A stretch of 64,000 nt of DNA from Rhodoferax fermentans (GTDB taxonomy: Bacteria > Pseudomonadota > Gammaproteobacteria > Burkholderiales > Burkholderiaceae_C): contig NZ_MTJN01000002.1 in NCBI RefSeq assembly GCF_002017865.1, positions 3,162,001 to 3,226,000 of the forward strand, read 5' to 3'. A model generated the notes under the pieces. The model saw nothing but the letters and a program-made list of their open reading frames with translations, was not told where the DNA came from and did no database searches. The position numbers and the translations under genes were made by a program. Of the stretch, positions 9,415-23,303 are shown in pieces (position 1 is the stretch's first letter; the number at the start of each line of letters is the position of its first letter).

Positions 9415-11226
9415 ATGAATTCATTGACGCTGATATTTGTGGCGGCACTGGTCTTTGCCATTGCCTACCGCTTCTACGGCATTTTCCTGGCCCAAAAGGT
9501 CATGAATCTGCGCGCAGAGCGGGAAACGCCGGCGGTAACCATGGAAGACGGTCACGACTATGTCAAGACCAACAAGTACGTGCTGTTCGGTCACCACTTT
9601 GCGGCCATCGCCGCTGCCGGGCCACTGCTCGGGCCGGTGCTGGCTGCGCAGTTCGGCTATATGCCAGGTGCGCTCTGGATACTGATTGGCTGCGTGTTGG
9701 CCGGTGGCGTGCACGACATGGTGGTGTTGTTCGCCTCGGTCCGCCACAAAGGCCGCAGCCTGTCGGTGATCGCAGAAACCGAGATCGGCAAAGCCGCCGG
9801 CAAAGTGGCGTCGGTGGCCATCCTGTTCATTCTGATCCTGACACTGGCCGGGCTCTCGATTGCGGTTGTGAACGCCATGTTCAACAGCCCATGGGGCACC
9901 TTCACGGTCTTCGCCACGCTGCCGATTGCGATGATCATGGGCGTTTACATGCACTACATTCGCCCCGGTGACATCAAGGGCATGAGCATCATCGGCGTGG
10001 TTCTGCTACTGATCTCGCTGTGGGTTGGCCCTTACGTCGCTGCCGATCCGGAATTGGCCAAGATGTTCACCTTCACCAAGAAAGAACTCTCGGTGATCAT
10101 CCCGGCGTATGGCTTCATCGCCTCGGTGCTGCCGGTCTGGTTCCTGTTGGTGCCACGTGACTACCTGTCGACCTACCTCAAGATCGGTACCATCGCCGCT
10201 CTGGCAATGGGCATCGTGTTTGTCCATCCCGAGCTGCACATGCCAGCGGTCACACCACATTTCTTCGGCGGCGGCCCGGTCATTCCAGGCGCAGCCTTCC
10301 CGTTCCTGTTCATCACCATCGCCTGCGGTGCACTGTCTGGTTTCCACGCCATCATTGGCTCAGGCACCACACCCAAGATGATTGCCAACGAGAAGGACAT
10401 TCTCTTCGTTGGTTACGGCGCGATGCTGACCGAAGGCTTCGTCGCCATCATGGCGCTGATTGCAGCCTGCGTTCTGGTGCCAGCCGACTACTTCGCGATC
10501 AATGCAGCACCCGCAGCGTTTGCCAAACTGGGCATCGCCACGGTCAACCTGCCCGAACTCGCAGCCCAGGTCGGTGAACAGGTTCAGGGTCGCCCGGGCG
10601 GCGCCGTGTCGCTGGCGGTTGGCATGGCCTACATCTTCTCGGCGGTGCCTTTCATGAAAGGCATGATGGCCTACTGGTACCACTTCGCCATCATGTTTGA
10701 AGCGGTTTTCATCCTGACCGCCGTGGACGCCGGTACCCGCGTTGGCCGTTATCTGCTGCAAGAAATGATGGGCAAGGTCTACGCACCGTTTTCCGATAAC
10801 TCCTGGACACCAGGCATCATTGTGACCAGCGCACTGTTTACAGGCTCATGGGGTTACCTGGTCTACACCGGTGACATTTCGACCATCTGGCCGCTGTTCG
10901 GCATGGCCAACCAGCTGCTGGCTGCCACCGCGCTGATCATCGGCACCACCATGCTGATCCGTCTGGGCAAGGCCAAATACGCCTGGGTGACTGCTGTGCC
11001 CGGCTTGCTGGTGTTCCCCATCGTGATGTGGGCTGGTTACCTCAACATCACCGGCAACTACCTGCCCAAACAGCTGTACCTGCTGACCACCATGTCGGGC
11101 ATCCTGATGGTCTTGATCAGCATTGTTTTTGTCGCCGCCTTCAGACGCTGGTATGAACTGCTCCAGATCGAGAAACGTGTGACCGACAAGTTCGGTGACC
11201 AGGTGCTTGACCTCGTAGCCGACTAA
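9415..11226 (+). CDS. cstA: CstA/BtsT-family carbon-starvation (pyruvate or peptide) transporter
   Basis: A 603-residue polytopic inner-membrane protein with about 15-16 hydrophobic segments. The N-terminal CstA pattern is clear (YRFYGIFLAQKV, then FGHHFAAIAAAGPLLGPVLA near residues 60-80, GGVHDM near 100) and GFHAIIGSGTTPKMI marks the conserved central motif. E. coli relatives CstA and BtsT take up pyruvate and are also linked to peptide use. The ATG at 9415 has GGAG six bases upstream; an upstream TTG frame at 9319 lacks one. The gene follows a BtsSR-like pair by 193 bases, which contain three candidate operator repeats, and ends at a strong terminator. I infer substrate-induced pyruvate uptake; whether the true role is CstA-like or BtsT-like cannot be decided here. 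Confidence 0.88.
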   Translation: MNSLTLIFVAALVFAIAYRFYGIFLAQKVMNLRAERETPAVTMEDGHDYVKTNKYVLFGHHFAAIAAAGPLLGPVLAAQFGYMPGALWILIGCVLAGGVHDMVVLFASVRHKGRSLSVIAETEIGKAAGKVASVAILFILILTLAGLSIAVVNAMFNSPWGTFTVFATLPIAMIMGVYMHYIRPGDIKGMSIIGVVLLLISLWVGPYVAADPELAKMFTFTKKELSVIIPAYGFIASVLPVWFLLVPRDYLSTYLKIGTIAALAMGIVFVHPELHMPAVTPHFFGGGPVIPGAAFPFLFITIACGALSGFHAIIGSGTTPKMIANEKDILFVGYGAMLTEGFVAIMALIAACVLVPADYFAINAAPAAFAKLGIATVNLPELAAQVGEQVQGRPGGAVSLAVGMAYIFSAVPFMKGMMAYWYHFAIMFEAVFILTAVDAGTRVGRYLLQEMMGKVYAPFSDNSWTPGIIVTSALFTGSWGYLVYTGDISTIWPLFGMANQLLAATALIIGTTMLIRLGKAKYAWVTAVPGLLVFPIVMWAGYLNITGNYLPKQLYLLTTMSGILMVLISIVFVAAFRRWYELLQIEKRVTDKFGDQVLDLVAD

Positions 11227-11242
11227 ACCAGCCAAACGTCTG

Positions 11243-11302
11243 GACTCGCAACAACGGCGAGTCTCAACAGGCCAGCGCCCCTCGGGGTCGCTGGCCTTTT
11301 TT
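11243..11302 (+). terminator. Rho-independent terminator after the CstA-family gene
   Basis: The stem AGGCCAGCG (11269-11277) pairs with CGCTGGCCT (11289-11297) around an 11-base loop and is followed by a run of T to 11302. A smaller hairpin, GACTCG...CGAGTC, lies just before it at 11243-11263. Confidence 0.85.
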
Positions 11303-11449
11303 GTATCGTGTCGGGTACCACCCACGAGCTTGCCGCGACCACAGGCTTCGAGGGAATCGTCAAGCCGACGTTGGGCAACTCCATCACCCCGGACCGTGGC
11401 CACAGTCATTGCCATGGCGCGGGAGCAGGCCCAGAGGGCCGAAATGGAC

Positions 11450-13090
11450 TCAGGCCATCGTCAGCGGGTAGATGTCCTTGATGTCCAGGATGTTTTTCTT
11501 GCTGCCATCGTCGATCTGGATGTCGCCGTGGATGTAGCCACCCTGCGAGCGAAAGCCCGGCACCAGCTCGGGGCAGCCACGCTCAGTAGCGATCAGGGTC
11601 AACAGGGCGAGTGCATCGGTGTCGTCAAAACGGCAATGGACATGTTTCTCGCTCGGCACAAACATGCCGCGGTGGGCATGTTGCGCCATGATCTGCTCAC
11701 CAATGCTCTTGGCCAACGCCAGGTAGGCCGGGGCCTGCGTTGCGCGGGCAACTTCCAGCGCTGCAAACAGCAGGATGGCGTCTGCCTGGCTGGCCACCAG
11801 AGGTGCCTTGGATGCAGCAGGGTCCGTGGCATGCCATTCACCCAGCCCAAAATGGCGCGCCATCGCTACCACATGCTGCCAGAGTGAGGCACGCCCGGTC
11901 ATGGCCCAGGCTGTCACGGTGGACAGGAAAACGATGGTGTTGATCGGCTTGCGCTCGAAAACCCAGCCCTTTTTGCCGTAGAAGCCCCGACGTGGGAACA
12001 CTTGCCCGGTCAGGTCCTTGCCATCAGCAAACATCGGCTTGATCTCGTTGGTTTCTGGCACATAGGCGTAACGCAACCAGGCTTCCAGGCCGTCGACAGC
12101 CCATTGTTTGAGTTGCTCACCCTTGGCACCGAGCTGGCGGGCCAGTGTGAGCTGGGCCAGGGTGGCGTCACCGTAGATGCCTTCCGGGCCGTTCATGGCG
12201 TCCGGGTCCATCTTGAACAGCACCCAGGCTTCCTGGGCCACGTCGCCATACTCCGGGCCAAACTGGCGCTGGGCGCGATCACCGTAGAAGGAGTAGGTGA
12301 ACTGTGGGTGGTTCTCGTCGGTTGGCGCCTCCTCACGCTTGACCGGGCGGTTGAACTGGTAACACCCCAGACCGGTCGCAGGGTAACGGCTGCGCACATA
12401 CTGCCAGGCCAAAAACTCGGCCCAGTCGAGCGCTTTCTCCTCCCCCGGCACCCGCTGGCCGAGCAAACCGGCGCCGTAGATCAGGTCATTGCCGATGTTC
12501 ACAAAGGAGAGCCCCTTGGCTTCGCGCAGGATCTCCAGATCGCGATGCATCGGTTTGTCCCAGAAGCCTGTTGCGGGCAAGGGCCTGCCGTAGCTGCCGT
12601 GGCGCGTGAGTTCGAGGGTGTCCCAGTTGTCGATGTGGCAGTTCCACTCGGCCTTGATGAGTTTTGCGGTGGCCTGCGGGTCAACCTCGAACATCAGCTC
12701 GTAGAACGGGTAATGGTGCTTGATCTCATGCACCTTGTTTTTGCCTTCGGGGCCGACGGTATCGAGCGTCTTCAGGTCCAGAAAACAATGCCCACCCCAG
12801 GTCAGCAGCCCCGAAGCGTCCGCGTGGTCAAAATGCCAGCGGATCGCGTCCATCGCCGCTTGTTTGTACTTGCCATCACCGCTCAAAGCCGAGAGTGCTG
12901 ACAAAGTGCGAAACAGGTTCTGCTGGGAGGCCAGGTTGGAAGGCTCCCAGTCGGTGCCTTCCATGTTGCGCCACTTCACCGGCTCACCGGTGAAGGTGTT
13001 CATGCCGTCAAAAAACAAGGGTGTGCCGTGATAAGGATCGCGGTAAGTGTTGAGGATGGTGTCAGCGTAGCGGCGGATGTAGTCAAGCAT
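11450..13090 (-). CDS. Family PL2-like (exo)pectate lyase, probably cytoplasmic
   Basis: The protein has 546 residues and no signal peptide. It resembles the enterobacterial cytoplasmic exopolygalacturonate lyase PelW/PelX group (PL2, beta-elimination of oligogalacturonides) through LASQQN, a GGH followed by a VHE-KHH block, DRAQRQFGPEYG, DLTGQVFPR-GFYGKKG, FDDTDALALLT and QGGYIHGD. The residues I recall as catalytic or metal-binding in the Yersinia enzyme (His109, Glu130, Arg171, His172) have counterparts at His101, Glu122, Arg163 and His164 with exactly the same spacing. It stands alone: no uronate uptake or catabolic genes flank it, and it converges on the CstA-family gene. It could act on another oligo-uronide or be a structurally related epimerase-like (alpha/alpha)7 protein, but retention of all four residues favours lyase activity. 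Confidence 0.75.
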   Translation of the reverse strand: MLDYIRRYADTILNTYRDPYHGTPLFFDGMNTFTGEPVKWRNMEGTDWEPSNLASQQNLFRTLSALSALSGDGKYKQAAMDAIRWHFDHADASGLLTWGGHCFLDLKTLDTVGPEGKNKVHEIKHHYPFYELMFEVDPQATAKLIKAEWNCHIDNWDTLELTRHGSYGRPLPATGFWDKPMHRDLEILREAKGLSFVNIGNDLIYGAGLLGQRVPGEEKALDWAEFLAWQYVRSRYPATGLGCYQFNRPVKREEAPTDENHPQFTYSFYGDRAQRQFGPEYGDVAQEAWVLFKMDPDAMNGPEGIYGDATLAQLTLARQLGAKGEQLKQWAVDGLEAWLRYAYVPETNEIKPMFADGKDLTGQVFPRRGFYGKKGWVFERKPINTIVFLSTVTAWAMTGRASLWQHVVAMARHFGLGEWHATDPAASKAPLVASQADAILLFAALEVARATQAPAYLALAKSIGEQIMAQHAHRGMFVPSEKHVHCRFDDTDALALLTLIATERGCPELVPGFRSQGGYIHGDIQIDDGSKKNILDIKDIYPLTMA

Positions 13091-13466
13091 GGTATTCGTG
13101 GCGGTTTTCCTGGAACTGAAATACCGACGAAACGACGGACAGGAATTTCAACCGCATTGGCTGAAGTATGGCATGGGTCTCAGGTATGAAATCAGTGTGG
13201 GTAGCCAGTGTTCGGGCTGGCCTAACCGTGAAGACAACACATAGATCCAGGTCAAGTCTGAAGAATGTCGCGAGCCCGCCAAACCTCGACTAGATCAAAC
13301 AAAGTGCATTCACTGCCCAAAGCGCGGCAAAAACCGCATCAAACCACCCTGTTTTGACACGCCCCGCGATTACCATCGGCGCCCCGCAAACGGCGGCAGG
13401 CCTGTTGCTGTGCGCCAATTTTTAGCCTTTGATCGCCCCGCTTACCGGAGCCCCCACCACCACACT
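13091..13466. other. Divergent promoter region between the lyase and radical SAM genes
   Basis: These 376 bases hold no gene that I can support. They must contain both promoters. The only sites I recognise are an FNR/Anr-like box at 13242-13255 and a related GATCAA core at about 13295. Confidence 0.4.
13242..13255 (+). promoter_or_regulatory. FNR/Anr-like box upstream of the radical SAM gene
   Basis: TAGATCCAGGTCAA differs at two positions from the anaerobox TTGAT-N4-ATCAA. It lies about 215 bases before the start of an oxygen-sensitive type of enzyme, which makes anaerobic control plausible. The distance is rather long and the match is imperfect. Confidence 0.35.
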
Positions 13467-14654
13467 ATGCACACCGAGACACCGATCCACTTCGTCCCCC
13501 AGACCGCCACAACAGAGGTTTCCCAGTCCGACGCCAACCCGATTGTGGGCGGCCGGGTGGAACTGCAATTGCTCACCACCCTCAAATGCAACCTCAAATG
13601 CAGCTATTGTTCGCTGGGGGTTGGCGACATGTTGGGCTCACAAGTCCATGTGGAGTACGACATAAAGCAGCTCAGCGCCTTTGTGGATCGGCACCTGAAG
13701 GGCAAAGAAATTTATGTCACCTTCTACGGCGGTGAACCCACGCTGAACAAGAAGCTGATGCTGGAGGTGATGCAGCGTTTCCCGAGCTTTCGCTTCCAGT
13801 TGCAGACCAATGCCACACTGATCGACAACCTGCCCGAGTGGGCGCTGAACCGCCTGTCCAATGTGCTGGCCTCGATCGACGGTGGCGAGTCCACCACCGA
13901 CGGCTACCGTGGCAAAGGCATCTACCGCCAGGTGGTGAAGAACCTCAAAGAAGTGCGCGACCACATCGGTGGCACGGTCACCGCCCGCGTCACCTGGGGC
14001 AACCCCGACACCTGCTTCGAAGAACTCGACCAGCTGGTGGTCGAGGGCTCCCCGTTTGACTACCTGTACTGGCAGTTTGTGGCCGACGAGATGTACGCCG
14101 GTGACTCGGTGGCCAAGCGCAAGGCGGTGCTGGTGCAGTTGATCGACAAATTTTTCTCGCGCACCGATGTGCTTTACCCGCTGATCCCGCTGATGGGCAT
14201 GGTGCGCAACAAGCTCTTCCCCACACGGGCGCTGGAGCTGTACGCTGGTGCCAGCCAGTGCCGCGTCTCCACCCACTTGCTCAACGTCATGCCCAACGGC
14301 GAGATCTACCCCTGCCCCGACATGATGTACGACCCGGCCATGAAGATGGGCGACATCAAGGGCAACTGGCTCAAGAAAAGCCCGCTGCAACAAGACCCGG
14401 CCATGCCTTGCCACGACTGCGAGGCCTATGCCTGGTGCCGCGGCAACTGCATGAAAAACATGCACCGGGGTTATGTGACGAACGACCTGCAGTACCGCAA
14501 CAACGTGGTCGAACCCATTTGTGAGCTGATCCGTTTCATGGGCCAGGAAATCGACAAGCGCAACCCGCAAGCCTGGTTCGAGCAACTCAGCCTGCCCGTG
14601 CGCAAGCAGATCATGGACTGCGAGGTCTACGAGTACGTTGAGGTCATGCCGTAA
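13467..14654 (+). CDS. Radical SAM/SPASM-domain enzyme of unknown substrate
   Basis: A 395-residue protein. The radical SAM cluster motif CNLKCSYC lies at about residues 40-47, with GGEPTLNK (SAM-binding GGE-like element) near 90. The C-terminal third carries a canonical SPASM layout for auxiliary iron-sulfur clusters: C-x12-G-x4-C (ending IYPC), then C-x2-C-x5-C-x3-C (PCHDCEAYAWCRGNC), then a further Cys about 23 residues on. Such enzymes mature peptides or activate sulfatases and dehydrogenases. I see no sulfatase, no quinohemoprotein and no convincing precursor peptide nearby, so the target is unknown. The ATG at 13467 is chosen because the GTG-started extension to 13410 has no ribosome-binding site; CGGAG lies 16 bases before the ATG, which is weak. 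A long inverted repeat follows the gene. Confidence 0.85.
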   Translation: MHTETPIHFVPQTATTEVSQSDANPIVGGRVELQLLTTLKCNLKCSYCSLGVGDMLGSQVHVEYDIKQLSAFVDRHLKGKEIYVTFYGGEPTLNKKLMLEVMQRFPSFRFQLQTNATLIDNLPEWALNRLSNVLASIDGGESTTDGYRGKGIYRQVVKNLKEVRDHIGGTVTARVTWGNPDTCFEELDQLVVEGSPFDYLYWQFVADEMYAGDSVAKRKAVLVQLIDKFFSRTDVLYPLIPLMGMVRNKLFPTRALELYAGASQCRVSTHLLNVMPNGEIYPCPDMMYDPAMKMGDIKGNWLKKSPLQQDPAMPCHDCEAYAWCRGNCMKNMHRGYVTNDLQYRNNVVEPICELIRFMGQEIDKRNPQAWFEQLSLPVRKQIMDCEVYEYVEVMP

Positions 14655-14671
14655 CGGACGACTCTTCGCGG

Positions 14672-14722
14672 GTGTGGGTTCGGCGTCACTAGCCTGAGAA
14701 GGCGAATGCCGAACCTGCACAC
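14672..14722 (+). terminator. Long inverted repeat after the radical SAM gene
   Basis: GTGTGGGTTCGGC (14672-14684) pairs imperfectly with GCCGAACCTGCACAC (14708-14722). It starts 18 bases after the stop codon and has no T-run, so it may be a weak terminator or an element remnant. Confidence 0.4.
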
Positions 14723-14740
14723 CACATTGGCAACAAATAA

Positions 14741-14868
14741 GCCGCGCAGACCTTACGGAATATGCGCGGCTTGCTACCGAGTCAGTAGCGTTTTCAGGCG
14801 ATCAACTCACTTGTCGCTGGCGGCACATCGGTGCAGCGGCCATGCGCCATCTCCGCCACGCGAATGCT
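14741..14868 (-). repeat. Diverged extra copy of the lpdA 3' end and its terminator
   Basis: This stretch aligns over about 125 bases with 16892-17020, which is the real lpdA end. On the minus strand it still reads SIRVAEMAHGRCTDVPPA, against SIGMAAEIAHGSCTDVPPA in LpdA. It includes the terminator stem AAGCCGCGCA/TGCGCGGCTT (14739-14772, perfect here) and a second hairpin with core GAGTCAGTAGC. Identity is about 80 per cent by eye, so it is not a fresh duplication. It lies on the far side of the 49-residue-repeat protein gene and so brackets that gene together with the true lpdA end. Confidence 0.75.
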
Positions 14869-15000
14869 CTGTCGCCATAAGTTCAACTCGCATTGAACTT
14901 GGCCGCCTACAGCACTTTCCTGATCTGATAATCCAAGACAGCGTTCGCATTTTGCACAGACAAAAGCGATGTCAGACGGCAACTCAATCAGGGATTCACG

Positions 15001-16887
15001 ATGAAAAAATTGCCCAAAGGCCGAACTTTTGCCGAGTTTCAGCCGCTGAAGCCAGGCGAATCAAAGCTGCTAAGCGCCTGTGCCAATGGCGAGGTGGCTG
15101 TGCTGGGGTCTGAACGACCCACCGCTAAGTCTGATACCAACACGGTTCGAGCCAGTTTTATTCGTTTTCTGGCCTTGGGTGGTGATGACGAGGTACCGGT
15201 ACATGAACACGGTGTTCAACTTGTAGGGGCATGGATTGAGGGTCCGCTGATTTTGAGCGGCACAGTCACGCCCACCAACCTGTCACTGCGCCGTTCCCAC
15301 TTTGATTCCATTCCTGTGTTCAACGGTGCAGAAATCCAGGGAAGCCTCAACCTGTCAGGCAGTTTGTTACCTGGACTGCTGGCGGATAACGCAGTGATCA
15401 AAGAGGATGTTTTCCTGAAAGACGGATTCACTGCTACCAGCGAAGTCCGGCTGCTGGGGGCGCAGATTGGCGGTGATTTGGCGTGCAGAGGTGCCAAGCT
15501 GGATGGCCAAGATAGCAACGCTTTGTCAGCAGATGGCGCGATGATTAAGGGCAGTGTTTTCCTTTCCGCTGGGTTCACTGCCTCCGGCAAGGTCCGGCTG
15601 TTGGGGGTACAGATTGGCCGCAATTTGGAATGCCAAGGTGCCAAACTGGACGGCAAAGATGGGGATGCGCTGTCGGCGGATCGCGCGCTGATCAAGGGCG
15701 ACGTTTACCTGGGCAACGGGTTCACTGCTACCGGCGAAGTCCGGCTGCTGGGGGCGCAGATTGGCCGTGATTTGGCATGCAATGGTGCCAAGCTGGATGG
15801 CAAAGATGGCGACGCTCTGTCGGCGGATGGCGCGATCATTAAAGGAGGTGTTTTCCTGTCTAATGGGTTCACATCTACCGGCGAAGTCAGACTGCTGGGA
15901 GCGCAGATTGGCCTTGATTTGACATGCACAGGTGCCAAGCTGGACGGCAAAGATGGCGAGTCTCTGTCTGCCGAAGGCATGAAGGTGAACGGTTCATTTT
16001 TCTTTCGTAACCTGGCAACTCCCGCGAAGGGCGTCAATCTCACGTCCGCGAGCGTGGGCCGTTTGGTGGACGATGAAGCCTCGTGGGGAGATCAACTGAC
16101 TTTGAATGGATTTGTTTATGGTCACCTGGCCGGTGGCGCACCCACCGATGCGCAGACACGGCTAAGCTGGCTCAACAAGCAACATGCAAAGTTCACAGGT
16201 GCTGAGAGTTTTAGGCCACAACCCTGGAAACAGCTGCAGTCGGTGCTGCGCAACATGGGCCATGTAGAAGACGCTAGGCAGGTGGCGATTGCGTTTGAAG
16301 ACCGATTGCGCTCATCCAACCTTGTCGGGCAAACACCAGCAACCTGGCCAACATTAATGCGTGCGGCTTACCGCTATCCTTCCATAGTCTTGCATTTCTC
16401 CTTCAAGGCGCTGATGGGTTATGGCTACCGACCCATGCGTTTGGGCATCTGGATGGTGGCCGTCTGGCTGGTCTGCGCAGGGGTTTATTGGTGGGCGGCC
16501 TTGCAAGGTGTGATGGCACCTAGCAACCCGCTGGTGTTCCAGAACCTGCCGACCTACCAATCTTGCAAAAACAGCCAAGCAAAACCCGAGACCAAGAACG
16601 AAACCAACTGGTATCTGTGTAAAACGTTGCCGGAAGAGTACACGGGCTTCAGCCCATTGGCCTATTCACTCGATGTGCTACTACCGCTGGTGAACCTGCA
16701 GCAAGAGACGGACTGGGCGCCGCTGATCCCCACCCCCAAGGGCAGTTGGTATCAGGAGCTATTTGCACACTGGACGTTCAATCACTTCGTTCGTTTTGTC
16801 GTTTGGTTTGAAATCCTGTTTGGCTGGGTGGCCAGTTTGTTGCTGGTGGCGGTGGTGTCTGGTCTGACCAAGCGCAGCGACGAATAA
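15001..16887 (+). CDS. Membrane protein with four 49-residue repeats, function unknown
   Basis: A 628-residue protein. Residues 1-130 are a soluble region with beta-rich, pentapeptide-like phrases (GAWIEGPLILSG, GAEIQGSLNLSG). Residues 133-328 are four tandem 49-residue units with the core EVRLLGAQIG-DL-C-GAKLDGKDG, probably a right-handed beta-helix. A linker follows (about 330-475), then one membrane helix near 478-500 and another near 596-622, so the repeat domain lies on one side of the membrane and a roughly 95-residue loop on the other. The gene has AGGGA seven bases before the ATG. It is bracketed by two copies of the lpdA 3' end, which suggests acquisition. Beta-helical repeats of this kind occur in many uncharacterised proteins; I do not assign a function. 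Confidence 0.8.
   Translation: MKKLPKGRTFAEFQPLKPGESKLLSACANGEVAVLGSERPTAKSDTNTVRASFIRFLALGGDDEVPVHEHGVQLVGAWIEGPLILSGTVTPTNLSLRRSHFDSIPVFNGAEIQGSLNLSGSLLPGLLADNAVIKEDVFLKDGFTATSEVRLLGAQIGGDLACRGAKLDGQDSNALSADGAMIKGSVFLSAGFTASGKVRLLGVQIGRNLECQGAKLDGKDGDALSADRALIKGDVYLGNGFTATGEVRLLGAQIGRDLACNGAKLDGKDGDALSADGAIIKGGVFLSNGFTSTGEVRLLGAQIGLDLTCTGAKLDGKDGESLSAEGMKVNGSFFFRNLATPAKGVNLTSASVGRLVDDEASWGDQLTLNGFVYGHLAGGAPTDAQTRLSWLNKQHAKFTGAESFRPQPWKQLQSVLRNMGHVEDARQVAIAFEDRLRSSNLVGQTPATWPTLMRAAYRYPSIVLHFSFKALMGYGYRPMRLGIWMVAVWLVCAGVYWWAALQGVMAPSNPLVFQNLPTYQSCKNSQAKPETKNETNWYLCKTLPEEYTGFSPLAYSLDVLLPLVNLQQETDWAPLIPTPKGSWYQELFAHWTFNHFVRFVVWFEILFGWVASLLLVAVVSGLTKRSDE
15397..15984 (+). repeat. Four tandem 147-bp coding repeats
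   Basis: The units are 15397-15543, 15544-15690, 15691-15837 and 15838-15984, each 147 bases and in frame. Units 2-4 are most alike (GAKLDGKDG, EVRLLG-QIG), while unit 1 has drifted. The high DNA identity points to recent expansion by unequal crossover or slippage, and copy number may vary between strains. Confidence 0.85.
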
Positions 16888-16891
16888 AAAA

Positions 16892-17020
16892 GCCGCGCAG
16901 CCCTTTCGGAATCTGCGCAGCTTGCTACTGAGTCAGTAGCATTCTCAGGTGGTCAACTCACTTGCGCGCTGGCGGCACATCGGTGCACGAACCGTGTGCA
17001 ATCTCGGCAGCCATCCCAAT
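16892..17020 (-). repeat. lpdA 3' end with terminator, partner of the upstream copy
   Basis: This is the genuine end of lpdA. The bidirectional hairpin AAGCCGCGCAG...CTGCGCAGCTT (16890-16923) has one mismatch and serves the convergent repeat-protein gene and lpdA. A second palindrome GCTACTGAGTCAGTAGC follows at 16924-16940. The block aligns with 14741-14868. Confidence 0.75.
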
Positions 17021-18820
17021 GGATTCACCCAGTGTGGGATGCGGGTGAATCGTTTTGCCGATGTCCACGGCGTCTGCTCCCATCTCGATCGCCAGGGCGA
17101 TTTCGCCAATCATGTCACCGGCGTGGGTGCCGACCATGCCGCCGCCCAGTATCTTGCCGTGGCCGTGGGCTTCGGGGCTGTCGTCAAACAGCAGTTTGGT
17201 GACACCTTCGTCGCGGCCGTTGGCAATGGCGCGGCCAGAGGCTGTCCAGGGGAACAAGCCCTTCTTGACCTTGATACCCTGCGCCTTGGCCTGGTCTTCG
17301 GTCAGGCCAACCCAGGCCACTTCGGGGTCGGTGTAGGCCACGCTGGGGATCACGCGGGCGTTGAAGGCGGCAGCTGCCAGTTCCTTGTTGCCTTGCAATT
17401 CACCGGCAATGACTTCAGCGGCCACATGCGCTTCATGCACCGCTTTGTGTGCCAGCATCGGCTGGCCGACGATGTCACCGATGGCGAAGATGTGCGGCAC
17501 GTTGGTGCGCATCTGGATGTCGACGTTGATGAACCCACGGTCGGTGACAGCCACACCGGCTTTCTCGGCGCTGAGCTTTTTGCCATTCGGCGTGCGGCCC
17601 ACGGCTTGCAGAACCAGGTCGTAGGTTTGTGGCTCGGGCACTTTCACGCCCTCCTCTGCGGGTGCGAAGCTAACCTTGATGCCTTCTGGGGTTGCCTCGG
17701 CAGCGACGGTTTTTGTCTTCAACATGATGTTGTCAAACCGTGGCGCATTCATCTTTTGCCAGATCTTGACCAGGTCACGGTCAGCGCCCTGCATCAGGCC
17801 GTCCAACATTTCAACCACGTCCAGGCGGGCGCCCAGGGTGCTGTAGACGGTACCCATCTCCAGGCCGATGATGCCGCCGCCCAGGATCAACATGCGTTTG
17901 GGCACGTCTTTCAAAGCCAACGCGCCGGTGGAGTCCACCACGCGTGGGTCTTTAGGCATGAAGGGCAGGTGCACGGCCTGGCTGCCTGCGGCGATGATGG
18001 CGTTTTTGAACGCGACCACTTTTTTGCTACCGGTTTTTTCCTGGCCGCTGCCGGTGGTTTCTTCCACTTCGAGGTGGTTGGGGCCGACAAAGTTGCCGTA
18101 ACCGCGAACAATGGTCACCTTGCGCATCTTGGCCATGGCGGCCAGCCCGCCGGTGAGTTTGCCAATGACCTTTTCCTTGTGGCCACGTAACTTGTCGATG
18201 TTGACCACCGGCTTGCCAAACTCCACGCCCAGGTCGCCCAGGTGGCTCACCTCGTCCATCACCGCCGCCACGTGCAGCAGGGCTTTGGACGGGATACAAC
18301 CGACGTTCAGGCAAACGCCACCCAAGGTGGTGTAACGCTCAACCAGAATGACTTTGAGGCCCAAGTCAGCCGCACGGAAGGCTGCCGAGTAGCCACCAGG
18401 GCCACCACCAAGCACCAGCACATCGCAGTCCAGATCGGCGTTGCCCGCAAAATTGGCGGCTGCGGGTGGGTCCACAGATGCTGCAGCTGCTACCGTTTGC
18501 GTAGCTGCTGGCCCTTGTGTTACCTGGGCTACAGGTGGATTGGGCTTGGATTCTGCGACTGGAGCCGGTGCAGCGCCCTCGCCTGCAGCTTCCAGCGTCA
18601 GCAGCAATGAACCCATGGCGACCTTGTCGCCAAGTTTGATCTTGAGTTCTTTCACCACGCCAGCGTGGCTGCTGGGGATTTCCATTGAGGCTTTGTCAGA
18701 CTCGACGGTGATCAGGCTTTGGTCCGCCTTGATGCTGTCGCCGGGTTTGACCAGCAGTTCAATCACGGTGACTTCCGCGAAGTCGCCGATGTCAGGAACA
18801 TGGATGTCAATGAGTGCCAT
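16958..18820 (-). CDS. lpdA: Dihydrolipoyl dehydrogenase with N-terminal lipoyl domain (E3 of pyruvate dehydrogenase)
   Basis: This FAD enzyme reoxidises the dihydrolipoyl groups of E2 with NAD+. At 620 residues it is longer than the common 470-residue form because it begins with a lipoyl domain (lipoylation site in ESDKASMEIP, about residue 43) and an Ala/Pro-rich linker. The FAD-binding GGGPGGYSAA follows near residue 138, then the redox-active disulfide GGVCLNVGCIPSK, an NAD-binding GGGIIGLEMG near 300, and the C-terminal dimer interface with HPHPTLGES, whose first His is the catalytic base. It is the last gene of aceE-aceF-lpdA. Lipoyl-LpdA is known from several betaproteobacteria and Neisseria. 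Confidence 0.95.
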   Translation of the reverse strand: MALIDIHVPDIGDFAEVTVIELLVKPGDSIKADQSLITVESDKASMEIPSSHAGVVKELKIKLGDKVAMGSLLLTLEAAGEGAAPAPVAESKPNPPVAQVTQGPAATQTVAAAASVDPPAAANFAGNADLDCDVLVLGGGPGGYSAAFRAADLGLKVILVERYTTLGGVCLNVGCIPSKALLHVAAVMDEVSHLGDLGVEFGKPVVNIDKLRGHKEKVIGKLTGGLAAMAKMRKVTIVRGYGNFVGPNHLEVEETTGSGQEKTGSKKVVAFKNAIIAAGSQAVHLPFMPKDPRVVDSTGALALKDVPKRMLILGGGIIGLEMGTVYSTLGARLDVVEMLDGLMQGADRDLVKIWQKMNAPRFDNIMLKTKTVAAEATPEGIKVSFAPAEEGVKVPEPQTYDLVLQAVGRTPNGKKLSAEKAGVAVTDRGFINVDIQMRTNVPHIFAIGDIVGQPMLAHKAVHEAHVAAEVIAGELQGNKELAAAAFNARVIPSVAYTDPEVAWVGLTEDQAKAQGIKVKKGLFPWTASGRAIANGRDEGVTKLLFDDSPEAHGHGKILGGGMVGTHAGDMIGEIALAIEMGADAVDIGKTIHPHPTLGESIGMAAEIAHGSCTDVPPARK

Positions 18821-18841
18821 GTTGTTCTTTCTATTTAGTTG

Positions 18842-18879
18842 GGGTCAGAGCACATGTGCTTCGCAAAGTGGTCTGACCC
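18842..18879. repeat. REP-like hairpin between aceF and lpdA
   Basis: GGGTCAGA (18842-18849) and TCTGACCC (18872-18879) form a stem around a loop that contains GTGCTTCGCAAAGTGG. It occupies nearly all of the 65-base gap between aceF and lpdA. It may stabilise or attenuate the transcript within the operon. I recognise the sequence as an intergenic element that recurs in related genomes, but only one copy is seen here. Confidence 0.55.
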
Positions 18880-18885
18880 ACAAAG

Positions 18886-20583
18886 TTATAACAATACGCG
18901 GCGGAAGTCGCCCAGGATCTGGGCCAGATAGACGTTGAAACGCGCGGCAGCGGCGCCGTCGATCACGCGGTGGTCCCAGGTCAAACTCAGCGGCAACATC
19001 AGACGCGGCTGGAAAGCCTTGCCGTCCCAGACCGGCTCCATGGTGGAGCGGCACACGCCCAAAATCGCCACTTCAGGCGCATTGATGATCGGGGTGAAAT
19101 ACCGCCCGCCAATGCCACCCAGTGACGAAATCGTGAAAGTGGCGCCAGACATTTCGGCTGGGCTCAGTTTGCCGTCACGTGCTTTCTTGGCCAGCTCGCT
19201 CATCTCTTGGCTGATCTGGAAGATGCCCTTTTTGTCGGCGTCCTTGATCACCGGCACCATCAGGCCGTTGGGCGTGTCAGCAGCAAAACCGATGTGGTAA
19301 TACTGCTTGTAGACCAGCGCGTCGCCGTCCAGGCTGCTGTTGAAGTCGGGGAATTTCTTGAGCGCGGCCACGCAGGCCTTGATCAAAAACGCCAGCATGG
19401 TGACCTTGACACCACTCTTCTCGTTTTCCTTGTTGGTGGATACGCGGAAGGCTTCCAGGTCGGTGATGTCGGCATCGTCGTGGTTGGTGACAGCCGGGAT
19501 CATGATGGCGTTGCGCAGCAGGTTGGCGCCGCTGATCTTCTTGATACGGCTCATCTCCTTGCGCTCGATCGGGCCAAACTTGGCAAAGTCGACCTTCGGC
19601 CAGGGGATCAGGCCCAGGCCTTCGCCACCACCAGCGGCTGCGGGTTTTGCGGATTGCTGCGCAGCAATCGCAGCGGTTTGCACCGCGCCACTCATGACCG
19701 AGCGGGTGAAGGATTCGATGTCAGCATCGGTGATGCGGCCTTTGAGGCCGGTGCCTTTGACTTCAGCCAGCGGCACACCGAGCTCACGCGCGAACTTGCG
19801 CACGGACGGAGAGGCATGCGGCAGACCCAGCGCCAGGGCGGTCGGGTTGTGCGCGGGCAGCGCAGGTGCTACTGCCACGGCGGCGGGTGATGCTACAGCA
19901 ACAGGAGCTGCTGACGCTTGTGCTGCGGGGGCTGCAGGCACATTTGGCGTTGCAGCCACGGCAGCAGCAGGTGCGGCACCTGCGGCGCTGCCTTGCAAGA
20001 TCAGCAACAGGTCACCGATGTTGACGGTGTCACCGAGCTTGACCTTGAGTTCTTGCACCACACCGGCGGCGCCAGAGGGAATTTCCATCGACGCTTTGTC
20101 CGACTCGACGGTGACCAGGCTTTGCTCGAGCTTGACGCTGTCACCGACTTGGACCATGACCTCGATCACGGTCACGTCCTTGAAGTCGCCAATGTCGGGC
20201 ACGCGCACTTCGACCGGGCCAGCGGCGGCGGCCACCGGTGCAGCCGGTGTTGGGATAGCAGGTGCGGCGGCAGGTGCGACAGAAGCTGCAGCAGCAGGCG
20301 CTTGTTCCACGGGGGCTTGGGGCTGATTTGGTGCAGAAGCCTCACCCGCCACTTCGAGCAGCAGCACCAGCGAGCCTTGTTTGACCTTGTCGCCCAGCGC
20401 CACCTTGAGTTCCTTGACCACACCGGCGTGGCTCGAAGGGATTTCCATGGAGGCCTTGTCGGACTCCACCGTCAGCAGGGATTGGTCAGCGCGCACGGTG
20501 TCGCCAGGTTTGACCAGCAGCTCGATCACGGTGACTTCGTCGAAGTCGCCAATGTCGGGCACTTTGATGTCCAGAATTGCCAT
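18886..20583 (-). CDS. aceF: Dihydrolipoyllysine acetyltransferase (E2 of pyruvate dehydrogenase)
   Basis: The E2 core enzyme transfers acetyl from lipoyl-lysine to CoA. In 565 residues it has two lipoyl domains (lipoylation motif VESDKASMEIP at about residues 40 and 160), each followed by an Ala/Pro-rich swinging linker, then a peripheral subunit-binding domain (SPSVRKFARELGV with VKGTGLKGRIT) and a C-terminal catalytic domain ending with the active-site motif DHRVIDGAAAARF. The first lipoyl domain is almost identical to that of the downstream LpdA, indicating duplication within the operon. It starts 17 bases downstream of the aceE stop, with a ribosome-binding site GGAG upstream. Confidence 0.96.
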   Translation of the reverse strand: MAILDIKVPDIGDFDEVTVIELLVKPGDTVRADQSLLTVESDKASMEIPSSHAGVVKELKVALGDKVKQGSLVLLLEVAGEASAPNQPQAPVEQAPAAAASVAPAAAPAIPTPAAPVAAAAGPVEVRVPDIGDFKDVTVIEVMVQVGDSVKLEQSLVTVESDKASMEIPSGAAGVVQELKVKLGDTVNIGDLLLILQGSAAGAAPAAAVAATPNVPAAPAAQASAAPVAVASPAAVAVAPALPAHNPTALALGLPHASPSVRKFARELGVPLAEVKGTGLKGRITDADIESFTRSVMSGAVQTAAIAAQQSAKPAAAGGGEGLGLIPWPKVDFAKFGPIERKEMSRIKKISGANLLRNAIMIPAVTNHDDADITDLEAFRVSTNKENEKSGVKVTMLAFLIKACVAALKKFPDFNSSLDGDALVYKQYYHIGFAADTPNGLMVPVIKDADKKGIFQISQEMSELAKKARDGKLSPAEMSGATFTISSLGGIGGRYFTPIINAPEVAILGVCRSTMEPVWDGKAFQPRLMLPLSLTWDHRVIDGAAAARFNVYLAQILGDFRRVLL

Positions 20584-20600
20584 GTTGTGTCTCCGCTCGC

Positions 20601-23303
20601 TCAGGCGTAAAGGGGGTTGACTTTGTTGGTATCGATGCCGTATTTGGCGATGGCTTCCACCACCTTGGCGACGGGCACCTTGCCCTCTTCACTCAATGCC
20701 TTGAGCGCCGCCACCACGATGTAGTAGCGGTTGATCTCGAAGTGTTCACGCAGCTTGCTGCGGAAATCGCTGCGGCCAAAACCGTCGGTGCCCAGCACCT
20801 TGTAGGTGCGGCCCTTGGGGATGTAGGGGCGAATCTGCTCGGCATAGGCCTTGATGTAGTCGGTCGACGCCACCACCGGGCCTTCGCTGCCTTGCAGCTG
20901 CTGCGCCACAAAGGACACCACCGGGGTGTCGGCCGGGTGCAGCAGGTTCTGGCGTTCGGCTTCCTGGCCATCACGCGCCAGTTCATTGAAGCTCGGGCAG
21001 CTCCAGACGTCGGCGGTCACGCCCCAGTCCTGGGCCAGTAGTTTTTGCGCGACAAAACTCTCGCGCAGGATGGTGCCCGAGCCGAGCAACTGCACACGCG
21101 GGTTGTTGACACCTTCGACACCAGGTTTGCACAGGTACATGCCCTTGATGATCTGCTCTTCGGTGCCCGGGGTCAGACCCGGCATCGCGTAGTTTTCGTT
21201 GAGCAAAGTCAGGTAGTAGAAGACGTTGTCTTGCTTCTCGACCATGCGTTTGAGGCCATGGTGCAGGATCACACCGACTTCATGCGCAAAGGTCGGGTCG
21301 TAGCTGATGCAGTTCGGAATGGTGCCCGCCAGGATGTGGCTGTGGCCGTCTTCGTGCTGCAGGCCTTCGCCATTTAGCGTGGTGCGCCCGGAGGTGCCAC
21401 CCAACAAGAAGCCGCGCGCTTGCATGTCACCCGCAGCCCAAGCCAAGTCGCCAATGCGCTGGAAGCCGAACATCGAGTAGTACACGTAGAACGGCACCAT
21501 GATGCGGTTGCTGGTGGAGTAGCTGGTGGCTGCGGCAATCCAGCTGCTCATACCGCCGGCTTCGTTGATGCCTTCTTGCAGGATCTGGCCCTTGGTGTCT
21601 TCCTTGTAATACATCACCTGGTCTTTGTCGACCGGGGTGTACTGCTGACCTGCCGGGTTGTAGATACCAATCTGACGGAACAGGCCTTCCATACCAAAGG
21701 TACGAGCCTCATCGACCAAGATCGGCACCACACGCGGGCCCAGCGCCTGGTCACGCAGCAGCTGGGTGAGGAAGCGCACATAGGCTTGGGTCGTCGAAAT
21801 TTCGCGGCCCGGCGCGGTGGGTTCCATCACCGACTTGAAAGTCTCGATGGACGGCACGGTGAAGGACTCATCGGCCTTGGTGCGACGGTGCGGCAGGTAG
21901 CCACCGAGCGCCTGACGGCGCGCGTGCAGGTACTGCATCTCGGGGGTGTCGTCGGCCGGTTTGTAGAACGGCAGGTCAGCCAGCTGGCTGTCGGGAATCG
22001 GGATATTGAAGCGGTCACGGAAGGCACGGATGTCGTCATCACCAAGCTTTTTGGTCTGGTGCACGTTGTTCTTGCCCTCACCGATCTTGCCCATGCCATA
22101 ACCTTTGACGGTCTTGATCAGCAGAACCGAAGGCTGGCCGGTGTGGTTGACGGCCTTGTGGTAAGCCGCGTAGACCTTTTGCGGGTCGTGACCGCCGCGC
22201 TGCAGGCCGAAGATCTCTTCATCACTCATCTTCTCGACCATCTTCGCGGTCTCGGGTGAGCGGCCGAAGAAGTGTTTGCGCACAAACGCGCCGTCGTTGG
22301 CCTTGAAGGCCTGGTAGTCGCCGTCAAGCGTGTCCATCATGACCTTGCGCAGGGCGCCGTCCTTGTCGCGCGCCAGCAGCGGGTCCCAGTTGCCACCCCA
22401 GATCAGCTTGATCACATTCCAGCCCGCACCGCGGAAGGTGCCTTCCAGTTCCTGGATGATCTTGCCGTTGCCACGCACCGGGCCGTCCAGGCGCTGCAGG
22501 TTGCAATTGATGACAAACACCAGGTTGTCGAGTTTTTCACGGGCAGCCAAGCCAATCGCGCCCAGGCTTTCGACCTCGTCCATTTCGCCGTCGCCACAGA
22601 ACACCCAGACCTTGCGCTTGCTGGTGTCGGCAATGCCACGGGCATGCAGGTACTTCAGGAAACGCGCCTGGTAAATCGCCATCAGCGGGCCCAGACCCAT
22701 CGACACCGTGGGGAACTGCCAGAACTCGGGCATCAGCTTCGGATGCGGGTAGCTCGACAAGCCCTTGCCAGCGGTTTCTTGACGGAAATTGAGCAGTTGC
22801 TCTTCGGTCAAGCGACCTTCCAAAAAGGCGCGGGCATACACACCAGGCGCCACGTGGCCCTGGACATACAGGCAGTCACCGCCGTGGTCTTGGCTCTCGG
22901 CATGCCAGAAATGGTTGAAGCCCGCACCAAACAGGCTGGCCAATGAGGCAAAGGAGCCGATGTGGCCACCCAAGTCCCCACCGTCTTCAGGGTGATGGCG
23001 GTTGGCTTTGACCACCATGGCCATGGCGTTCCAGCGCATGTAGGCGCGCAGGCGCTCTTCGATCTCGATGTTGCCCGGGCAGCGTTCTTCCTGGTCGGGC
23101 TCGATGGTGTTGACGTAACCGGTGTTGGCCGAAAACGGCATGTCCAGGCTGTTTTGCCGGGCGTGTTCCAGCAGTTGCTCTAATAGATAGTGCGCGCGCT
23201 CTGGGCCTTCTTTTTCAATAACGGCGCTCAGTGCGTCCATCCACTCGCGGGTTTCCTGGGCATCCGCATCAATGGCGGTATGGTTATCGGGTGCTACTGA
23301 CAT
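20601..23303 (-). CDS. aceE: Pyruvate dehydrogenase E1 component, homodimeric type
   Basis: A thiamin-diphosphate enzyme that decarboxylates pyruvate and acetylates the lipoyl arm of E2. At 900 residues it has the size of the gammaproteobacterial AceE. The ThDP motif begins with GDGEMDE and ends with NCNLQRLDGPV, and DLGGHIGSFAS near residue 100 and HEDGHSH in the C-terminal half are typical. I chose the ATG at 23303 because AGGAG lies seven bases upstream and the product begins like other AceE; the frame extends to 23408 without support. It is the first gene of the PDH operon, divergent from a two-component system, with an inverted repeat in the shared promoter region. Confidence 0.96.
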   Translation of the reverse strand: MSVAPDNHTAIDADAQETREWMDALSAVIEKEGPERAHYLLEQLLEHARQNSLDMPFSANTGYVNTIEPDQEERCPGNIEIEERLRAYMRWNAMAMVVKANRHHPEDGGDLGGHIGSFASLASLFGAGFNHFWHAESQDHGGDCLYVQGHVAPGVYARAFLEGRLTEEQLLNFRQETAGKGLSSYPHPKLMPEFWQFPTVSMGLGPLMAIYQARFLKYLHARGIADTSKRKVWVFCGDGEMDEVESLGAIGLAAREKLDNLVFVINCNLQRLDGPVRGNGKIIQELEGTFRGAGWNVIKLIWGGNWDPLLARDKDGALRKVMMDTLDGDYQAFKANDGAFVRKHFFGRSPETAKMVEKMSDEEIFGLQRGGHDPQKVYAAYHKAVNHTGQPSVLLIKTVKGYGMGKIGEGKNNVHQTKKLGDDDIRAFRDRFNIPIPDSQLADLPFYKPADDTPEMQYLHARRQALGGYLPHRRTKADESFTVPSIETFKSVMEPTAPGREISTTQAYVRFLTQLLRDQALGPRVVPILVDEARTFGMEGLFRQIGIYNPAGQQYTPVDKDQVMYYKEDTKGQILQEGINEAGGMSSWIAAATSYSTSNRIMVPFYVYYSMFGFQRIGDLAWAAGDMQARGFLLGGTSGRTTLNGEGLQHEDGHSHILAGTIPNCISYDPTFAHEVGVILHHGLKRMVEKQDNVFYYLTLLNENYAMPGLTPGTEEQIIKGMYLCKPGVEGVNNPRVQLLGSGTILRESFVAQKLLAQDWGVTADVWSCPSFNELARDGQEAERQNLLHPADTPVVSFVAQQLQGSEGPVVASTDYIKAYAEQIRPYIPKGRTYKVLGTDGFGRSDFRSKLREHFEINRYYIVVAALKALSEEGKVPVAKVVEAIAKYGIDTNKVNPLYA

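Follow-up and report, generated by a model that had tools for sequence, protein, structure and literature searches.

Background

Chromosomal integrons hold serial small cassettes rich in toxin-antitoxin genes, with the newest cassette beside the entry point. Here we describe a differently built series of insertions at the 3' end of lpdA, the gene for dihydrolipoamide dehydrogenase, starting from a 64,000-nucleotide (nt) stretch of Rhodoferax fermentans (assembly GCF_002017865.1, contig NZ_MTJN01000002.1, positions 3,162,001 to 3,226,000; hereafter the window) and extending to the rest of the genus. In the window, the gene for a 628-amino-acid (aa) repeat protein lies between the intact end of lpdA and a second, truncated copy of that end, which we call a tail. 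Compared with a chromosomal integron, the repeats of this system are pieces of lpdA, and no integrase was found near the arrays among the matches listed.

Other described systems come closer in one respect or another. In Escherichia coli, single crossovers of trimmed circles gave gene-end duplications of 109-950 bp in 14 sequenced clones (Amarir-Bouhram 2011, PMC3240628). The products described there share with ours a duplicated gene end with a variable start, but they come from a laboratory lacZ assay, whereas the lpdA end appears to be a natural hotspot. The type VI secretion system (T6SS) immunity arrays of Vibrio cholerae have been explained by serial displacement beside a conserved anchor, with one-sided (homology-facilitated illegitimate) recombination proposed as the process (Kirchberger 2017, PMC5361080). 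As that paper portrays them, these arrays resemble the lpdA arrays in that new modules would be added serially beside a conserved anchor, older parts would be pushed downstream and no integrase is known. The two differ in what serves as anchor and in what would be displaced: in V. cholerae, a place in the secretion cluster and immunity genes, respectively; at lpdA, a gene for a housekeeping enzyme and dead gene ends that lie between toxin-antitoxin and defence genes unrelated to one another. Restriction-modification (RM) genes with long target duplications have been reported in Helicobacter pylori (Nobusato 2000, cited in PMC1643837); going by that citation, our locus differs in having many unrelated cargos at one gene, with serial tails, and in that the tails are often nearer to the lpdA of another species. 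Finally, hotspots have been documented that lack mobile elements and whose flanking genes recombine (PMC5635113). What is described of them matches the fast cargo turnover and the lack of a recognised mobile element seen here, and the recombination that we suspect at the flanking core gene, but the insertions at lpdA are marked by truncated gene-end scars.

In the open-licence literature we found no paper on lpdA hotspots, nor one for Limnohabitans. The type of process is already known and each of its pieces has precedents; as far as we have seen, what is new is the use of a housekeeping gene as anchor, with a series of lpdA scars enclosing toxin-antitoxin and defence genes. On the comparisons of sequence given below, we lean towards a reading in which foreign DNA has repeatedly entered genomes of the genus at the lpdA 3' end: recombination at lpdA would bring in a new gene end together with cargo and displace the old end, and later exchange would swap the cargo. 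If this is true, an integrase-free hotspot leaves an oriented scar of a housekeeping gene, so that the sequence could reveal the order in which insertions followed one another, and the donor and breakpoint of each. It would also become testable whether one-sided recombination, circle crossover or hidden transposition spreads defence and toxin-antitoxin genes.

A second lpdA end in the window

The array is anchored at the 3' end of lpdA (16958..18820, minus strand), an open reading frame (ORF) with matches to the Pfam families Pyr_redox_2, Pyr_redox_dim and, for an N-terminal lipoyl domain, Biotin_lipoyl. Using repeat search, alignment and folding, we delimited the proximal, intact lpdA 3' end with its stop codon, palindrome and terminator (16883..17008, minus strand) and a distal, 5'-truncated and frame-broken tail with its terminator (14732..14857, minus strand), the latter also from the start of the right-hand block common to three sister species. 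The distal tail is 84% identical to the intact end over 124 nt, in the same orientation and 2151 nt downstream, and was matched with E = 2.9 × 10−30 in the genus genome search. The paired blocks are 14732-14813 with 16883-16964 (87%) and 14815-14856 with 16967-17008 (81%), at a spacing of 2151-2152 nt. The repeated stretch takes in approximately 15 codons at the end of lpdA (AHG-CTDVPPA), then the stop region, the palindrome GCTACTGACTCAGTAGC, located after the stop codon in each copy, and the terminator hairpin; folding gives the same pair of hairpins for the two copies (z −3.5 and −3.6). Past 14857 (lpdA position −48), the similarity of the two tails weakens, and it may extend to 14868 with small gaps. 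Across the whole genome of this strain, the lpdA tail matches at just these two places. The alignment puts a 1-nt deletion just 5' of the stop in the distal tail, which is a broken remnant for that reason.

A first-pass annotation of this DNA had claimed that a duplicate of the lpdA tail and terminator brackets the repeat-protein gene, and the alignment, which covers the AHG-CTDVPPA region, confirms this. The similarity also extends beyond the hairpin, as the coding end, the stop region and the palindrome align as well. The annotation had proposed to check which tail resembles which clade. The comparison does not settle which tail is native: over the 124 nt, the distal tail is 90% identical to the intact end of the sister species G084 versus 84% to the window's own (genomes, contigs and named loci are given by our G, C and L numbers).

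Trivial origins of the repeat were considered and rejected. Chance or hairpin-only likeness is ruled out by the E value, the coding-region alignment and the matching folds; a tRNA-type site is ruled out by the absence of a tRNA at 11000-21000; and an assembly artefact is ruled out by the presence of tails in the one- or two-contig genomes G000 and G082 as well.

A probable old scar with exchanged cargo in the window's clade

The sister species G084, G078 and G004 share the layout of the window: lpdA is followed by cargo, the cargo by a truncated lpdA tail, and the tail by the same radical SAM gene. In the window, this flank common to the three sisters encodes a radical SAM/SPASM protein of 414 aa (13410..14654, plus strand; Pfam Radical_SAM), and a pectate lyase family protein (11450..13090, minus strand; Pfam PF06917) forms a flank common to G078 and G004. 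The radical SAM protein of G078 is 96.6% identical to that of the window, 97.6% to that of G084 and 96.1% to that of G004, and its gene lies directly after the distal tail in each. On the left, similarity within the clade stops at the end of the terminator, 75-77 nt past the stop codon; on the right, similarity between the window and each sister begins at lpdA position −48 (14857 in the window), and G084 and G004 retain more of the distal tail than the window does. Cargo turnover between these same flanks is high, with four cargos in four sister species and no integrase among the matches listed: AbiLi/AbiLii in G084, Wadjet JetABCD in G004, HTH/ImmA-IrrE and DUF4411 proteins in G078, and the 628-aa protein in the window.

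Long direct repeats of lpdA flank the insert, and no second copy was detected in G005, G024 or G112. Compared with G084, the first two of these genomes continue from lpdA into a region located further downstream in G084, with a 956-aa gene that we take to be sucA. Thus, both things that the first-pass annotation had proposed to look for in relatives, different cargo between two tails and loci with no second tail, were found. It had also named the opposite outcome, in which all close relatives would carry both tails in one vertically inherited arrangement. Half of this holds, as all three sisters have both tails and the same right flank; the other half does not, as the cargo differs and G005 and G024 have no detected second tail. 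Because the cargo differs in all four species, and because these two genomes lack a detected second tail, the distal tail appears older than the present cargo. It is best read as one common, older scar beside which the cargo has been exchanged.

Such an exchange could in principle be the whole explanation. If the only process were double homologous exchange at fixed core genes on either side, with no tail-making step, it would account for the cargo swap between the tails in this clade and for the lack of listed integrase matches, and the documented hotspots without mobile elements are a precedent. Two perfect crossovers, however, give no truncated tail, and the varied tail starts described below need another step; we consider it improbable that exchange alone produced the locus.

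As a side observation, the radical SAM/SPASM protein of the window scored 157.6 of 225 bits, under the cut-off of NCBIfam TIGR04084, and among the lpdA loci compared its gene is confined to the window's clade.

Extra lpdA tails across the genus

We searched 89 genomes of the genus, one per species, with the 437-nt lpdA tail as query, and 74 matched. Extra partial lpdA tails were present in 24 of the 89 (E ≤ 1 × 10−10), a count that leaves out the full-length paralog rows G029:C61 and G071:C296 and the weak rows G076 and G021, and that includes G064 and G095 for at least two separate pieces each, with no full-length lpdA matched there. As a control, we used the 3' tail of the neighbour upstream of lpdA (18886..20583, minus strand), an ORF that is presumably pdhB/aceF. 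It gave an extra piece in 1 of 89 genomes, or in 3 of 89 including two diverged probable paralogs. In all 12 genomes with lpdA and extra tails on one contig, the extra tails lay downstream in lpdA orientation, and up to four lpdA ends stood in a row within one array.

Many of these genomes are metagenome-assembled genomes (MAGs) with broken contigs, and the cargo of G026 and G068 is partly unseen. The contigs of G107 and G094 begin inside lpdA, and we also noticed that G034:C128, G068:C73, G026:C55, G095:C40, G064:C186 and G077:C59 each have a contig border inside an lpdA end or tail or shortly after it. Contig breaks at lpdA ends are expected of repeats that short reads leave unresolved, and tail arrays may therefore be undercounted in MAGs. 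We additionally searched 80 named loci, over 8 kb downstream or to the contig end, and found lpdA pieces of at least 50 nt at 13 of them (that of L147 being just 50 nt). Two of the 13 are records not marked as MAGs, Rhodoferax sp. OV413 and Limnohabitans sp. WS1. The loci from Acidovorax, Comamonas testosteroni (apart from a 28-nt terminator match), Hydrogenophaga, Variovorax and Ramlibacter, some of which had little downstream sequence, showed no pieces.

These counts bear on the possibility that the lpdA end was duplicated locally in an ancestor, by slippage or unequal crossover, and then passed down vertically while unrelated genes were inserted into the gap in the ordinary way. Local duplication fits the distal tail lying at the same place in all four sister species, and it fits the 11 of 32 tails whose best match is the host's own lpdA. 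It does not fit arrays of up to four ends that differ in their starts, terminator types and cargo, nor an adjoining pdhB tail that shows almost none of such extra pieces, and we regard it as very improbable.

The starts of the tails range from lpdA aa 274 to approximately 605, with several in the 405-440 region, and inner deletions are frequent; this variation speaks against a single attachment core. The first-pass annotation had proposed either recombination at the lpdA end or an old integration by an element that targets 3' gene ends. Recombination at the lpdA end still stands, whereas the site-specific element does not fare well. Site-specific integration usually leaves an intact gene end on one side and a truncated copy on the other, and the palindrome after the stop codon in both copies would suit a tyrosine recombinase for which the lpdA 3' end is the attachment site and whose action restores the gene. 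The varied starts speak against such a recombinase, as does the absence of a PF00589 match within 25 kb of the arrays in 16 genomes among the stronger matches listed out of 182 in all; the nearest listed match lies approximately 27 kb away (G082), and that of the window genome 169 kb away. Likewise, no phage integrase was found among the cargo proteins scanned with Pfam, a scan that stopped short of the large G107 and G082 slots and in which serine recombinases were not searched for. We hold site-specific integration to be highly unlikely.

Cargo of the slots

We catalogued 19 tail-bounded slots from 14 genomes (the window, G084, G092, G004, G078, G071, G019, G014, G094, G075, G107, G082, G015 and G023), with genes called by longest ORF and codon use; only the first slot was counted for G082 and G023, and two matches were omitted, a weak distant piece in G078 and one in G014 confined to the terminator. 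Toxin-antitoxin or defence-type genes were present in 10 of the 19: AbiL (two slots), Wadjet, ImmA/DUF4411, HicB, PIN, HigB, HTH/Gp49, BrnT/CopG and nucleotidyltransferase/Phd. The HTH of the HTH/Gp49 slot was below the cut-off, and the AbiL of G092 was assigned by its likeness to that of G084. An eleventh slot, in G019, holds a lone nucleotidyltransferase (NTase), and such families matched at about the cut-off. The other eight carry the window's protein, small ORFs without a family in three slots (the same ORF in G019 and G107, a different one in G075), a GMC oxidoreductase (G071), a beta-lactamase-fold hydrolase (G023), and the contents of the large slots of G107 and G082, which we read as metabolic judging by sequence alone. 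Cargo is convergent with lpdA in 14 of the 19 slots.

NTase, PIN, HigBA-like and AbiL cassettes recur at the lpdA loci of different species. Slots of the named records contain a Fic protein (L152), an FMN oxidoreductase with a weak amidohydrolase match (Limnohabitans sp. WS1), a remnant of a DDE integrase core (rve_3; L169) and proteins without a family (L195), and in G085 an excisionase-type HTH adjoins a PIN-like protein (NCBIfam). As the scars suggest, looking for partial 3'-end copies just downstream of a core gene may be a cheap search rule for unknown defence genes.

Further observations concern individual slots. In Rhodoferax sp. OV413 (L173, 10133-12697), an 855-aa HD-CE/HATPase protein, possibly the product of a defence gene, lies between lpdA and a truncated tail. 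A 138-aa ORF with no Pfam family, found at 98% likeness in an lpdA-tail slot of both G019 and G107, occurs at L070 3487-4258 and L074 474-1246 (lpdA on the plus strand). A stretch of approximately 214 nt at L071 2738-2957 is found again downstream of lpdA in G071, G082 (twice), G110, G108 and G074, at 70-78% identity.

A cassette with apparent ends of its own

The NTase cassette, approximately 790 nt long (L135, G034:C128, 9254-10046), had matches in 15 of the 89 genomes, that in G091 over 26 nt only, and five copies come close to full length. With G091 set aside, 10 of the remaining 14 genomes have a piece or an end of lpdA beside the cassette or on the same contig, and none was detected beside the copies in G017, G106:C6, G109 and G013. 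The gene-start end of the cassette falls within a few nt of the same place in six genomes and the other end is sharp in most, with a shorter left end in G019 and G023; full-length cassettes are bounded on either side by the short inverted repeat GCGGACGC. What varies is the point of lpdA next to the cassette: aa 433 in G019 and G111, 421 in G072 and approximately 595 in G023. To the left of the G072 cassette, lpdA continues as far as aa 537; to its right, it starts again from aa 421. From its borders, the NTase cassette looks more like a unit with its own ends, and a transposition-like step is possible.

The borders of this cassette would suit insertion with a long target duplication, in which cassettes with defined ends enter by an unknown transposition-like process and leave a copied stretch of lpdA, approximately 0.1-1 kb long, at their far side. 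Constant ends and an inverted repeat next to differing lpdA positions would be expected of such a process, the lpdA overlap around the cassette in G072 fits it, and the RM genes of H. pylori offer a parallel. Sharp ends are, however, confined to the NTase cassette: those of the HigBA-like cassette are less exact, and two species appear to share one AbiL joint. No transposase was found in the small cassettes scanned, tails nearer to another species than to the host are not what a simple copy would give, and the NTase unit also occurs without a detected lpdA piece in the four genomes named above. Target duplication therefore seems to us a possible but rather unlikely account. We give similarly limited credence to the notion of an integron-like port without an integron, in which toxin-antitoxin and defence cassettes that carry an lpdA stub would circulate among Rhodoferax, Limnohabitans and relatives, enter beside lpdA and be stored serially between dead lpdA ends, at least one cassette having its own inverted-repeat ends.

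The same cassette helps to interpret one apparently plain locus. G021 has no second tail at the thresholds used, yet a remnant of the NTase cassette lies beside its lpdA, so it is not an empty site; G092 has AbiL and a tail where G021, with the same block beyond, has only the NTase remnant. The end motif of the cassette was also tried as a general cassette mark, which led no further: 7 sites were found versus 1.6 expected over 733 kb, and 4 of the 7 are in NTase cassettes. One site of this motif lies in the window, probably by chance.

History read from the arrays and from lpdA

Terminator types differ among intact ends and tails; of 58 lpdA ends, 12 are of type A, 23 of type B and 23 of other types. 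Types are mixed within single arrays (B then A in G071; B, A, B in G075), and the far tail of G068 resembles the lpdA end of its sister G033. Of the 32 tail pieces, 21 score higher with the lpdA of another species than with that of the host. The first tail and second slot of G019 match the lpdA end and first slot of G107 (95% over 1008 nt), which would place newer cargo next to lpdA if the G107 copy is the intact gene. G112 and G026 share the same block without and with a detected tail, respectively, the G026 contig breaking inside. On a tree of the lpdA 5' part, the terminator types require 6 changes for A and B alone and 20 with all others taken as one type.

The sequence of lpdA itself lends partial support to recombination at this gene. 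Third-position distances correlate with those of the lpdA 5' part at r = 0.24 for aa 541-620 (the last 80 codons) versus 0.41-0.47 for aa 201-440. Within the window's clade, the last 40 codons are 82-88% identical versus 92-98% just before, and they rank 3 of 30 windows along the gene.

Several observations weigh against recurrent entry by recombination at lpdA. The terminator types are clustered on the tree (20 changes versus 26.1 on average for shuffled labels, of which 2 in 200 gave as few), and much of their pattern is therefore inherited. The contig of G107 begins at lpdA aa 467, and its first copy could itself be a tail; the displaced tail of G019 is barely nearer to the end of G074 than to its own (9 versus 12 differences in 211). 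The 11 tails best matched by their own lpdA are what plain duplication would give, and many of the margins are small. The last 40 codons do not stand out in close pairs from beyond the window's clade (13 disjoint pairs; rank 10 among 30 windows), and no clear donor switch was seen inside lpdA of G028 or G014. Approximately unbiased (AU) tests reject the rest-of-lpdA tree for every segment, the 3' one included; since all segments reject, we dropped this test as proof of 3' replacement. Finally, the rather sharp ends and inverted repeat of the NTase cassette are not predicted by the recombination model.

A possible route of entry

If the lpdA end is indeed an entry point that works by recombination, incoming DNA would consist of an lpdA 3' end joined to cargo, perhaps taken up by natural transformation, and would recombine with the chromosomal lpdA. 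The event could be a single crossover of the RecA type with a fragment that had been trimmed at its ends and recircularised, or it could combine homology on one side with illegitimate joining. Its product would be a complete lpdA, the last part of which can be the donor's, followed by the cargo, a 5'-truncated lpdA end as a scar and the old neighbour genes. We favour homologous recombination with one imprecise joint, followed by ordinary exchange, on account of the varied tail starts, the lack of listed tyrosine-recombinase matches nearby, the gene-end duplications from circle crossovers in E. coli and the displacement model proposed for V. cholerae. Repeated entry would build arrays with newer cargo nearer to lpdA, and two tails flanking a slot would permit cargo to be swapped by ordinary homologous exchange; the cargo may benefit its host. 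Through such a swap, the repeat-protein gene of the window probably replaced whatever first came with the older distal tail.

The repeat protein of the window

The gene for the 628-aa protein (15001..16887, plus strand) sits between the two tails and is oriented convergently with lpdA. It ends in a stop codon directly at the lpdA terminator and starts approximately 130 nt from the distal tail, with the region 14858..15000 reaching upstream from the gene as far as that tail. The stretch between the tails has a G+C content of 55.1% versus 61.0% in the window. From the ORF, its repeats 147 nt apart and an AlphaFold model, the protein is predicted to be a beta-solenoid of 49-aa repeats with a C-terminal helical, probably membrane, region; the mean pLDDT of the model is 80, with the solenoid mostly above 90 and the helical C-terminus poorly modelled. 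The protein matched no family above the cut-off in Pfam and none in PADLOC or NCBIfam, and a fold search of the Protein Data Bank (PDB) with the model gave no match at E ≤ 0.001, the loose matches including pentapeptide-repeat and lyase solenoids. Its genomic place suggests a possible defence role, and it may be one of the unknown defence genes to which the scars point. The protein occurs in one of the 89 genomes of the genus and in 6 of 399 across the order (its own included), and its relatives are 31-53% identical to it and vary in repeat number.

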